DNA of 64,000 nucleotides from Thermoprotei archaeon. Its GTDB lineage: Archaea > Thermoproteota > Thermoprotei > QMSL01 > B3-G16. Within the stretch, counting starts at the first letter, position 1; the number at the start of each line of letters is the position of its first letter. The DNA lies in the NCBI GenBank assembly GCA_021162845.1, contig JAGGXX010000067.1, forward strand, positions 1 to 64,000. Reading direction: 5' to 3'. Positions 24,057 through 30,005 of the stretch are shown in pieces. The position numbers were made by a program, and so were the translations under genes. A model generated the notes under the pieces. That model searched no databases. It was not told the DNA's origin and saw only the letters and a program-made list of their open reading frames with translations.

Positions 24057-25727
24057 ATGAACGTGAACCCCATAACATATCAAGTCATAAGAGGGGGATT
24101 AATTAACGCCTGTCGAGAGGCTGGGATAGTTCTGAGGAACTCAGCGTTTTCCCCCAACATAAAGGAGAGAATGGACCATTCAACCGCTATACTAAGCCCT
24201 AAGTTAGAGCTGGTCGCACAGGCTGAACATATCCCTGTTCACCTAGGCTCCATATCCTGGGGGGTCAGGAATACGATGGCCCTTATGGAGAACGTAAAGG
24301 AAGGCGATATGATAATAGTCAATGACCCATACATAGCTGGAACCCACCTCCCAGATATCCTCCTCATAAGGCCTGTATTTTATGAAGGTAAGCTCATAGC
24401 CTTTGTAGCAAACAGAGCGCATCATGCCGATGTGGGAGGCATGGCACCCGGCAGTATGCCCGGTGATGCAAGCGAGATATATCATGAAGGCATCATAATA
24501 CCACCCGTTAAGATAATGGAAGGAGACGAAGTAAACGGAGATATACTTAAGTTGATATTGGCCAACGTCCGGACTCCTGAGGAGAGACTAGGGGACATAA
24601 AGGCCCAGATCTCAGCCAATAGAGTCCTCGAAAAGCGGGTCCTCGAATTAGCTGGGAAATATGGCGATGACACCTTAATGGAGACGATGAACCTAATGTT
24701 GAAACACTCAGAGAGGCGGATGAGGAGGCGGATCTCGAGGATATCCCCTGGGCTTTATGAAGGTGAGGACTACATCGAGGGGAGGAAAGGAAACTTACTC
24801 ATAAAAGTCGCAATACGTGTAGAGGGCGATGAACTCTTCATAGATTTCTCGGGAACGAGTAAGCAAGTAGAGGAGCCCATTAATGCGGTTATGGGCGTAA
24901 CGCTGGCTTGCGTCCTCTACATATTAAAAGCCATAGCTGATCCCAGTGGAGCCGCAAATGACGGATACCTAAGGGCAGCGCACGTTAAGGCCCCTAAGGG
25001 GACAATAGTTAACGCTAAGCCCCCTGCCCCTGTCTCGGGGGGTAATGTGGAGACAGCACAACGCATAGTGGACGTATTGCTAAGAGCATTAGCAGATGCT
25101 TTACCCGGTATTATACCAGCTGCTAGCCAGGGTACGATGAATAACGTATCGGTAGGCGGATATGATGAGGATGGAAGGGGATGGACATTCTATGAGACGA
25201 TAGGGGGAGGCATGGGTGCTAGACCGGGCTTAGATGGCATTGATTGTGTTCACGTACACATGACCAACACCATGAATACCCCGATCGAGGTGCTCGAGAG
25301 GTACTATCCCATAAGGTTCCTTAAATATGAACTTAGGCCTGACAGTGGAGGGGCTGGCAAGTGGAGGGGAGGATGCGGCATAGAAAGGGCGTGGGTCTTC
25401 CTGGGGAGTACAGGGACGCTATCAGTCATGGGAAACAGAGTACGTACGAAGCCCTGGGGATTAAGGGGAGGACGACCTGGCGCTTCAGCTGAGTACCTAG
25501 TAGTACGCAGGAATGGTCAAGTCGTGAGATTAGGGCCTATGGCTACTATTAGGCTGATGAAAGGAGATGTAGTCATCCTTAGAACCCCAGGCGGCGGAGG
25601 GTATGGGAATCCTCTAGAAAGGGACGTAAATAGGATTATTGAGGACTATTTAGAAGGTAAAGTGACTAAGAGAATAGTCGCGGAGATCTATGGAATAGGG
25701 GAGCTTGAAAAACGCTTAAAGCCTTAA
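24057..25727 (+). CDS. hyuB: Hydantoinase/oxoprolinase subunit B (HyuB-type)
   Basis: The N-terminal NPITYQVIRGGLINACREAG and the segments ERMDHSTAIL, HVGGIMPGS-like HADVGGMAPGS and GGGGYGNPLERD near the C-terminus are the conserved landmarks of hydantoinase B. The length of 556 residues is normal. With HyuA it forms a heteromeric ATP-dependent amidohydrolase acting on cyclic amides. The two genes are 5 bp apart in one operon. No permease or N-carbamoylase gene lies nearby to hint at the substrate. Its stop overlaps the opposing 25724-26104 gene by 4 bp. Confidence 0.88.
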   Translation: MNVNPITYQVIRGGLINACREAGIVLRNSAFSPNIKERMDHSTAILSPKLELVAQAEHIPVHLGSISWGVRNTMALMENVKEGDMIIVNDPYIAGTHLPDILLIRPVFYEGKLIAFVANRAHHADVGGMAPGSMPGDASEIYHEGIIIPPVKIMEGDEVNGDILKLILANVRTPEERLGDIKAQISANRVLEKRVLELAGKYGDDTLMETMNLMLKHSERRMRRRISRISPGLYEGEDYIEGRKGNLLIKVAIRVEGDELFIDFSGTSKQVEEPINAVMGVTLACVLYILKAIADPSGAANDGYLRAAHVKAPKGTIVNAKPPAPVSGGNVETAQRIVDVLLRALADALPGIIPAASQGTMNNVSVGGYDEDGRGWTFYETIGGGMGARPGLDGIDCVHVHMTNTMNTPIEVLERYYPIRFLKYELRPDSGGAGKWRGGCGIERAWVFLGSTGTLSVMGNRVRTKPWGLRGGRPGASAEYLVVRRNGQVVRLGPMATIRLMKGDVVILRTPGGGGYGNPLERDVNRIIEDYLEGKVTKRIVAEIYGIGELEKRLKP

Positions 25728-26104
25728 TGAGATGAACGATGCCTATACCAGCTAATGAAGAGCAATAGTGCGGTAATGCCTGTGGCCAAGCACATTGTGA
25801 GGGTAACTTCTAGCGGTTGATACGAGAAAACCGTAAGGAGGATAACCGCTATCGAGGCACCGATTCCTAGGAAGCAAAACGGGTAATATTTACGCCATAG
25901 AAGTAAGGAGGACGTTACGTACGCTATACCTGAGAGCGTTAGAGGCAGACCACCAAATAGTGCGAACAGCGAGCCATTAATTAGATCATTAATAGACATC
26001 AAGAGGAGTAGGATTCCTAGGGTCATTGAGAGTGATGACGCTAGACGCTCATGTAGGGGGATGAGCTCATCGAGATCATCCGATGAGCGCGATCTACTAG
26101 GCAC
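25724..26104 (-). CDS. Small four-helix membrane protein, unknown
   Basis: The 126-residue protein has a charged, Ser/Asp-rich cytoplasmic N-terminus (1-20) and four hydrophobic helices. No family is recognised. It converges on hyuB with a 4-bp overlap and is bordered on its upstream side by the 470-bp gene-free structured region. Confidence 0.55.
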   Translation of the reverse strand: MPSRSRSSDDLDELIPLHERLASSLSMTLGILLLLMSINDLINGSLFALFGGLPLTLSGIAYVTSSLLLWRKYYPFCFLGIGASIAVILLTVFSYQPLEVTLTMCLATGITALLLFISWYRHRSSH

Positions 26105-26214
26105 GTCTGATCAACCTTAGCCTCTTTTCGATCGCTTCAATTTTGACAAAGTCTAGATAAAAACGTTACTCAACCTCCTAAGCCATTCATAAACGTGAGA
26201 GAGAAGATGTTGAT

Positions 26215-26360
26215 AGTGCAACTAGGTCTAAGCCCAGTCACCCAGCGAGAGATAAAGGTCTTTCCTAACCGCGTATAACAGGGTCGCCCCCGTTATACGT
26301 TAGGTTTAGGCATAGACCTTTACTTCTCGATGAGCGCTAAGCTTGCTCCCTAGCTGCACT
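26215..26360. repeat. 146-nt long imperfect hairpin (structured RNA or miniature inverted-repeat element)
   Basis: Three nested helices can be drawn. The outer one is 26215-26226 with 26349-26360 (11 of 12 pairs). The middle one is 26246-26261 with 26314-26329 (15 of 16 pairs including one G-T). The inner ones are 26264-26269 with 26299-26304 and 26273-26279 with 26292-26298, capped by GGG-TCGC-CCC. A 4-bp AAGC/GCTT helix joins outer and middle parts. No ORF of note lies inside. It does not show RNase P, SRP or 5S hallmarks that I know. Confidence 0.6.
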
Positions 26361-26370
26361 ATGTTATTTG

Positions 26371-26399
26371 CATGGAATCCATTATAAGCGTTTTCCATG
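26371..26399. repeat. Inverted repeat CATGGAA/TTCCATG
   Basis: Seven-base perfect arms (26371-26377, 26393-26399) with a 15-base spacer lie just after the long hairpin in the same gene-free stretch. This may be a hairpin or an operator; the function is unknown. Confidence 0.35.
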
Positions 26400-26497
26400 T
26401 CTTAAAGGGGCATGTGCAGGGATCTAGGACTTATCTAAATTTCATCTTTTTAAGCTGAAAAAAGACCTCTCTTCATGAAGTAATTTAGGATCTGTCG

Positions 26498-26553
26498 CTA
26501 GGGTGCCTTAACTTTAATCGTCATAGCTTAATGAGCGCACTTTGTCCCTAGCT
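26498..26553. repeat. Inverted repeat GCTAGGG/CCCTAGC sharing sequence with the long hairpin
   Basis: GCTAGGG and CCCTAGC arms are about 40 bases apart. The right arm context ATGAGCGC, then 6 nt, then TCCCTAGCTG matches the right arm of the long hairpin (26330-26355: ATGAGCGC, 9 nt, TCCCTAGCTG). So part of the element is present twice in this intergenic region. Confidence 0.4.
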
Positions 26554-26574
26554 GATAGATACAGATGCCTTCTC

Positions 26575-27285
26575 TTAAGGCGTAGTTTCCCATACGCGCT
26601 TCTTCTCTTCATATTCATCTCTAGTCCCTATAGGACGAGCTGGTACGCCCGCAACAACTATCTCCGGAGCAACGTCCTTAGTTACTACTGCACCAGCCGC
26701 GACCACGGCACGCTTCCCTATCCTCACTCCTGCCATTAGCACAGCGCCTGCACCTATGACCGCACCCTCCTCAATTACGACTCCACGTAACTTACTGCTA
26801 GGGGGATATTTATCATTAGTAACCCTTACATGAGGGCCTAAGAACACATTATCCTCTACTCTCGTAAGATGGGGCAAGTAGACCCCTGTCTGTATGCTTA
26901 CGTTTTTGCCTATGAGGACCTTGCCATCGAGAACCGCGAAGGAACCAACCCTAGTTCCGCTCCCTACACATGATCCTTCCCGTATTAGAACCATGTGACC
27001 CGTTTCCACGTTATCGCCTATTCTCGTTTGTTCATAGACTATGGTATTGCTCCTTATGATGCACTGCTTCCCTACCCTTACACCCTCACTAACGGCATCT
27101 AGGGCCTCAAAATCGACCCCTCTTCCCTCCTTAAGTAGCAAAAGTATCTTTCGCCTTATCGGATAGCCAAGAATGACTTTATCGCCAATCAGAGTGCCTT
27201 CGTGTATCACTGAGGGGCCTAACACCACGTGATCTCCTTCGAATAACGCTCCCTCTAATTTGGCCTTACGGGAACAGAACTTCAT
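26575..27285 (-). CDS. Left-handed beta-helix (hexapeptide-repeat) acyltransferase
   Basis: The 236-residue protein consists of repeated [LIV]-G-x-x-x-x units that build a left-handed beta-helix, for example VRVGKQCIIRSNTIV, TRIGDNVETG and ARIG-like VRIGKRAVVAAGAVVTKD. The tail VVAGVPARPIG is the classic end of NeuD/WecD/PglD-type and serine-acetyltransferase-like sugar acetyltransferases. It probably transfers an acetyl group to an amino sugar for surface glycans. Its start overlaps the TrpRS stop by 20 bp, so the two genes are coupled. Confidence 0.85.
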   Translation of the reverse strand: MKFCSRKAKLEGALFEGDHVVLGPSVIHEGTLIGDKVILGYPIRRKILLLLKEGRGVDFEALDAVSEGVRVGKQCIIRSNTIVYEQTRIGDNVETGHMVLIREGSCVGSGTRVGSFAVLDGKVLIGKNVSIQTGVYLPHLTRVEDNVFLGPHVRVTNDKYPPSSKLRGVVIEEGAVIGAGAVLMAGVRIGKRAVVAAGAVVTKDVAPEIVVAGVPARPIGTRDEYEEKKRVWETTP

Positions 27286-28408
27286 TCACATCGCCTATAT
27301 CATGAATGAAGAACCTTTCAAGCTTATCTATTAAGCTTTTTCGTTTACGCCTGTGTTCTTCAAGCCTTTTTATTAGAGAGGCAGCTAGAAGCCTCTTACA
27401 ATCCCCACACAGTATCTCCCCAGATCTACATGCCCTGTAATGTTCCTCTATCTTCTTTTCGTCCTGAAAAACATAAGTGCTTAACCACTCGAAGACAACG
27501 CATTTCTCAGGTTCTCCCCCTAGCTCTCGTTGTTCCTTAACGCTAGCCCTTCCACCGGTTAAGGCCATCCATATCTTTTTACGTATGACCTCTGGCTCAT
27601 CCTTAGTGAAAATGCACGTCTCAGGCCTTGAAGCAGACATGGGTTCTCCGGTTAGACCTCTTACGTAGATGGAGTATATCGCGGCTGGCTTGAAGAGCCC
27701 GACTCTCTCAGCTACATCTCGGGTAAGTCGCATATATGGATCCTGGTCAGCGCCTATGGGGACTAATACCGGGTATCCCATCTCTAAGGTAGGCATTAAG
27801 ATGTGCGCGGCTTGCACTGCGGCGTAGAAGATGGTACCAGCATTTGCGCTGTCACTAAGGCCGAAGGTCGCCTTAACGGTATTGTAGGTTAGGTATCTGG
27901 AAAGGAGCGTAGCATATTCGTAGATCTTTTGCGTATGTGTCGATATGTAAAGGAACGTACGTCCTTCTTGAAAGCCGAGCGCAAGTATGTCCAATGCGTT
28001 ATCTAAGGCATACTTATACGCCTCTTTGAGGTCCTTCACCTTGCCGAATACATACTTCTCGTCATCTGAAAGCGGTATGTAAACCCGCGCCTTTAACTCC
28101 TTTTGGAGCCAAAATATGAAAGCGAAAAGCATCAGATGCCCTAAGTGCATGTAGTTAGAGGGACCGCGTCCCGAGACTATAGCGACTTCGTGCCCTTTTG
28201 CGTGAAGGTCCAAGTACTCCCTCAGGCTTCTATGAGCATAGAAGAAGCGCCTCCTTAGGAGGATGTGGGGATCCTTGAAGTAGGACAATATTTCATCTGT
28301 TATTGGTTCTGCACCGAATTCCCTTATCAACCTCTCATAATCCGCTTTCTTCTCGAGAGCTGTTACTTCATGAACGCCAAAGTGAATCCCCCAATGTCTC
28401 CACCTCAC
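27266..28408 (-). CDS. trpS: Tryptophanyl-tRNA synthetase, archaeal/eukaryal type
   Basis: This class I synthetase charges tRNA-Trp. The HIGH-type motif is GPSNYMHLGH at residues 82-91 and the KMSKS-type motif is GEPMSAS. A C-terminal four-cysteine segment (CVVFEW, then YRACRSGEILCGDCKRL) could hold zinc, as in some archaeal TrpRS. Start is GTG at 28408; the N-terminus HWGIHFGVHEVTALEKKADYERLI-like region (about residues 5-28) matches family proteins. Length is 380 residues. It lies directly upstream of the LbH acyltransferase. Confidence 0.93.
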   Translation of the reverse strand: MRWRHWGIHFGVHEVTALEKKADYERLIREFGAEPITDEILSYFKDPHILLRRRFFYAHRSLREYLDLHAKGHEVAIVSGRGPSNYMHLGHLMLFAFIFWLQKELKARVYIPLSDDEKYVFGKVKDLKEAYKYALDNALDILALGFQEGRTFLYISTHTQKIYEYATLLSRYLTYNTVKATFGLSDSANAGTIFYAAVQAAHILMPTLEMGYPVLVPIGADQDPYMRLTRDVAERVGLFKPAAIYSIYVRGLTGEPMSASRPETCIFTKDEPEVIRKKIWMALTGGRASVKEQRELGGEPEKCVVFEWLSTYVFQDEKKIEEHYRACRSGEILCGDCKRLLAASLIKRLEEHRRKRKSLIDKLERFFIHDIGDVNEVLFP

Positions 28409-29865: not shown

Positions 29866-30005
29866 TGGTCCCCGGGGCGGGATTTGAACCCGCGACCACC
29901 CGGTATCTGCAGGACCCGGCTGACACGTGCTCATATAAGCCCCTTTAGGGGATATCGCACGTGCGGGATCTACAGCCGGGCGCTCTTCCGCTGAGCTACC
30001 CGGGG
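29866..30005 (-). tRNA. tRNA-Tyr (GTA) with 65-nt intron and encoded CCA
   Basis: Exon 1 is 30005-29970 and exon 2 is 29904-29869, followed by genomic CCA at 29868-29866. The folded tRNA has the acceptor CCCCGGG/CCCGGGG, D stem GCTC/GAGC, anticodon stem CCCGG/CCGGG, loop CTGTAGA with anticodon GTA, and T arm GCGGG-TTCAAAT-CCCGC. The first pair C1-G72 is the archaeal tyrosine identity element. The intron (29905-29969) sits between positions 37 and 38. Three-nt bulges AGA and ATA flank a 4-bp helix, cut after the second base of each, the canonical bulge-helix-bulge for archaeal splicing. Confidence 0.95.

Follow-up and report, generated by a model that had tools for sequence, protein, structure and literature searches.

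To our knowledge, few archaeal RNAs have known roles beyond the universal ones. Between 9 and 199 intergenic noncoding RNAs have been reported from archaeal model organisms, and 102 intergenic sRNAs from Sulfolobus acidocaldarius (PMC12817955). sRNA132 of Haloferax volcanii is a further archaeal intergenic sRNA (PMC6560208). In a window of 64,000 nucleotides from a Thermoprotei archaeon (positions 1 to 64,000 of contig JAGGXX010000067.1, to which coordinates refer unless another locus is named), we find a long hairpin, hereafter the rod, that resembles these sRNAs in standing alone between protein genes, in having its own predicted TATA promoter, in being noncoding and in being apparently lineage-restricted. 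It differs from them in the unusual length and regularity of its helix, and in that it is known from sequence alone and lacks a known target. Bacterial 6S RNA, which is single-copy, rod-like, 150-200 nt long and interrupted by internal loops, offers a second comparison. The rod is likewise single-copy and rod-like and contains an internal loop, but it has neither the large central bubble of 6S RNA nor a match in Rfam. We know of no sigma-70 holoenzyme in archaea.

The rod occupies a 470-nt gap (26105-26574) between two minus-strand genes, a 126-aa ORF and a hexapeptide-repeat acyltransferase gene, the latter overlapping the end of a gene for a W/Y-class tRNA synthetase (27266-28408). The genes for hydantoinase A and B lie on the plus strand, point towards the gap and end at 25727. 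The gap had been described as gene-free, and indeed it contains no complete ORF longer than 30 codons. The features of the locus are as follows.

25724-26104, minus strand: 126-aa ORF downstream of the rod, hydrophobic, without a Pfam family and with few, weak relatives.
26169-26155, minus strand: second BRE/TATA-like site, GTAACGTTTTTATCT, similar in score to AAAACGCTTATAATG.
26155-26212, minus strand: stretch downstream of the rod, with the pyrimidine tract TCTTCTCTCTC (26207-26197) and a run of five T (26163-26159).
26213-26362, minus strand: predicted rod-shaped RNA of 150 nt, one unbranched hairpin.
26284-26287, minus strand: apical tetraloop GCGA of the GNRA type, closing a 12-bp helix.
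26355-26361, minus strand: predicted transcription start (~26358), placed from the position of the TATA box.
26394-26380, minus strand: predicted BRE/TATA promoter of the rod RNA, AAAACGCTTATAATG, found with a tRNA-trained matrix.
26371-26399: 7-bp inverted repeat CATGGAA-15-TTCCATG (arms 26371-26377 and 26393-26399) flanking the TATA box.
26488-26560: smaller hairpin holding a repeated arm motif (26531-26554), z -2.3 on the minus and -3.2 on the plus strand.
26575-27285, minus strand: hexapeptide-repeat acyltransferase gene, upstream of the rod.

Read on the minus strand, the rod forms 63 base pairs, 56 of them Watson-Crick and 7 G-U. A 14-bp foot is followed by an internal loop (GAGC/AGA), by a helix interrupted by a few single mismatches and bulges, and finally by the 12-bp apical helix, whose GNRA loop exists on this strand only. 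The minus-strand 150-mer folds at -89.5 kcal/mol as against -43.5 +/- 3.7 kcal/mol in 1000 shuffles, the lowest of which reaches -56.2 kcal/mol. The hairpin is real and lies far beyond chance. The original prediction of a layered 146-nt hairpin thereby holds, with four nucleotides added and not one of the 1000 shuffles coming near; it had, however, missed the strand. For the stretch 26205-26370, the minus strand folds at -90.1 kcal/mol (z -12.8) and the plus strand, ~21 kcal/mol weaker, at -69.7 kcal/mol (z -7.5), which leads us to prefer the minus strand. That the plus strand also folds well is a consequence of the near-palindromic sequence, because any near-palindrome must do so. The base pairs themselves are biased in the same direction, with 7 G-U pairs on the minus strand against 1 mismatch of the A-C type, the counterpart of a G-U pair on the opposite strand (one-sided binomial p 0.035), and this bias by itself is weak statistical support. 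A kink-turn reading of the internal loop was dropped on visual inspection, because the unbulged strand carries too many unpaired bases.

The stability of the rod also stands out against the genome as a whole. Both strands of 1.43 Mb, or ~66% of the genome, were folded in 160-nt segments stepped by 80 nt, and the top-scoring segments were then refined. After correction for G+C content the rod lies at -7.8 SD, compared with -6.0 for the end of the 23S rRNA, -5.7 for a hairpin at the end of tnpB and -5.4 for the SRP RNA. Relative to G+C content, only one 160-nt stretch in the 1.43 Mb is more stable, a perfect 49-bp palindrome (-10.4) at the extreme end of contig C60 (L140 1-103) that is most likely an assembly fold-back. 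This palindrome bears on the reading that the rod is itself a fold-back artefact or a chance inverted duplication, as it demonstrates that the same assembly contains such a structure. In contrast to the C60 palindrome, the rod lies in the interior of its contig, 26 kb inside 124 kb, and its imperfect arms differ at many places; a chance duplication, in turn, is at odds with a fold so far outside shuffled expectation and with a fitting promoter. We regard either origin as very unlikely.

Five other very stable hairpins emerged from the scan, at L153 9370-9530, L124 2940-3060, L095 2890-3060, L089 3040-3200 and L139 15700-15860, and several of them carry GATGA-type motifs. A tnpB gene with Cas12f1-like TNB and OrfB_IS605 domains has the L153 hairpin at its 3' end, and the remaining four are possible TnpB guide RNAs, of which some may lack a neighbouring tnpB gene. 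These hairpins, like the rod in their stability, lie in, or seem part of, tnpB-type elements. For the rod, an orphan omegaRNA was rejected, with no tnpB beside it and no sequence similarity to the omegaRNA candidates of the genome. We likewise rejected a divergent form of SRP RNA or RNase P RNA, as both RNAs are found on other contigs and the rod has no Rfam match, and a C/D box sRNA is not indicated since neither box C (RUGAUGA) nor box D (CUGA) occurs within the 150 nt.

A putative transcription signal lies next to the foot of the hairpin. We trained a promoter matrix of 15 positions on 30 tRNA upstream regions of the same genome, and it recovers the BRE-TATA pattern. AAAACGCTTATAATG, which is absent from the training set, ranks second among 127,972 positions in the window, where the first rank is presumably held by the window's own training tRNA, and its score is on a par with those of tRNA promoters in this genome. 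Only 83 of 2.86 million sampled genome positions score as high (top 0.003%), and the probability that a site this good occupies the appropriate 13-nt slot at one or other foot of the rod is ~8e-4. In archaeal promoters the TATA centre lies at -26, which places the start at ~26358, a few bases inside the rod foot. The inverted repeat around the TATA box could be an operator, though a chance origin is possible. At the other end, the rod is not immediately followed by a textbook T-run, but the pyrimidine tract TCTTCTCTCTC and the T5 run are possible terminators of the archaeal type. Further downstream, GTAACGTTTTTATCT is probably the promoter of the 126-aa ORF. The same region contains AGGAGGT, a Shine-Dalgarno-like motif on the minus strand (~26180-26173), with neither ATG nor GTG at the usual distance.

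The arrangement of these sites also bears on the main rival of a stand-alone RNA gene, in which the rod is the long 5' leader of the membrane-protein ORF, transcribed from 26358 to 25724 and controlling expression or stability in cis. The rod lies directly upstream of the ORF on the same strand, and an 11-nt rod stretch, GCTCATCGAGA (26335-26325), has full complementarity to the beginning of the ORF mRNA (26075-26065). These 11 nt, however, are buried in the rod stem, and a match of that length is only mildly unexpected in this span; moreover, the second promoter-like site between rod and ORF has nearly the same score as the first. We consider a cis-acting leader improbable. Duplex energies calculated for the rod with the downstream mRNA were discarded, as the program ignores internal folding.

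A DNA search of its own genome finds the rod in single copy. Neither that search nor the covariance model, nor the motif CTAGGGA-N5-GCGCTCAT allowing mismatches, reveals a true further copy dispersed in the genome. When run against 81 genomes from the class and 398 from the phylum, the covariance model detects only the rod itself, although a model built from a single sequence would miss diverged relatives, and the order is represented by four genomes only. We take the weak blastn matches found in relatives, which span 17-40 nt with E values no better than 0.005, to be chance. At the rod, Rfam gives nothing but chance matches, whether searched at gathering or at relaxed thresholds, and the literature on long-hairpin archaeal RNAs provided no match. 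Rfam also detects an intron-bearing tRNA gene (~60-nt intron) elsewhere in the window (29869-30005, minus strand) that ARAGORN missed and that is, by eye, probably tRNA-Tyr (GTA).

Synteny points in the same direction. Two relatives, G002 and G003, keep the tRNA synthetase/acyltransferase pair but have no rod, and unrelated genes begin within ~120 nt. Because the covariance model finds no match and the syntenic relatives lack the rod, it appears on present evidence to be lineage specific, so far found in this species only. The blastn and covariance searches that the original prediction had suggested as a check thus gave no copies elsewhere, either in the genome or in relatives. The same comparison speaks against the rod being a 3' untranslated structure of the tRNA synthetase/acyltransferase transcript. 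The rod does lie downstream of this gene pair on the same strand, but it is separated from the pair by ~180 nt of other sequence and by a strong promoter, and in G002 and G003 the pair does without it; such a role is extremely unlikely.

A decayed mobile element, that is, a MITE or an insertion end in which the inverted repeat itself is the point and the RNA has no function, would account for a lineage-specific near-palindrome at a site where relatives carry other genes, and for a nearby partial duplicate of one arm motif. Like MITEs, the rod is a short intergenic near-palindrome; unlike them, it exists in one copy and is not flanked by a target-site duplication. It also has no adjacent transposase and no match in phage and plasmid collections, and its apical pattern has none among viral contigs. 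In addition, the strand bias of the fold and the correctly placed promoter would be left unexplained. A mobile origin is quite improbable, and the suggestion of a MITE with its decayed copy is not supported, on the same grounds: neither a target-site duplication nor a phage or plasmid relative was found, and the supposed copy shares only ~18 nt.

This partial copy consists of the minus-strand motif CAGCTAGGGA...GCGCTCAT, present in the rod at 26356-26330 and again at 26554-26531. Its local alignment score of 27 compares with 17.2 +/- 2.8 in shuffles and is reached by 2 of 200, or by 4 of 200 with a permissive statistic (1-2%). Genome-wide, GCGCTCAT and CTAGGGA each occur about twice as often as base composition would predict. 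The repeat announced by the original prediction is therefore present, but with a significance of 1-2% it exceeds chance only marginally and is suggestive at most. The smaller hairpin that holds it is weak and sits just past the acyltransferase stop. Together with the CATGGAA/TTCCATG repeat (26371-26377 and 26393-26399), it accounts for the two further inverted repeats noted earlier in the gap.

Taken together, we favour, at a probability of about 0.68, an independent noncoding RNA gene on the minus strand that lies between protein genes and has its own promoter. The locus has several attributes of an sRNA gene: it is intergenic, has no ORF and carries a predicted BRE/TATA promoter at the right distance. 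Against this reading, pairing extends 3-5 bp past the predicted start, which selection on the RNA alone would not need. In the proposed sequence of events, TBP and TFB would bind the BRE/TATA site at 26394-26380 and RNA polymerase would start at ~26358. The transcript would fold at once into a rod of ~60 bp capped by the GNRA loop, and transcription would stop in the pyrimidine- and T-rich stretch, before the downstream ORF with its own putative promoter. As a stable RNA, the rod would then most likely act in trans, offering its internal and apical loops to an RNA-binding protein or a partner RNA.

Among the three readings offered originally, a structured noncoding RNA is thus the best supported, now with a strand and a promoter. 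Regulation of the hydantoinase genes is unlikely in cis, as these lie on the opposite strand and run towards the rod, ending at 25727. The acyltransferase gene shares the strand of the rod, lies upstream of it and appears to belong to a separate unit. A bolder proposal is a new class of archaeal rod RNA, defined by a near-continuous ~60-bp helix and a strong promoter of its own and serving an uncultured order as a trans-acting regulator based on protein binding or double-stranded RNA; this we regard as doubtful.

An orphan RNA of this sort would be ordinary in kind, because archaeal models report 9 to 199 intergenic noncoding RNAs, while the length and regularity of its helix are unusual. If transcribed, the rod would rank with the most strongly folded RNAs that its genome encodes and would be an orphan RNA from an uncultured order of archaea, and with its predicted 5' end it provides a concrete, strand-specific target for metatranscriptomes.
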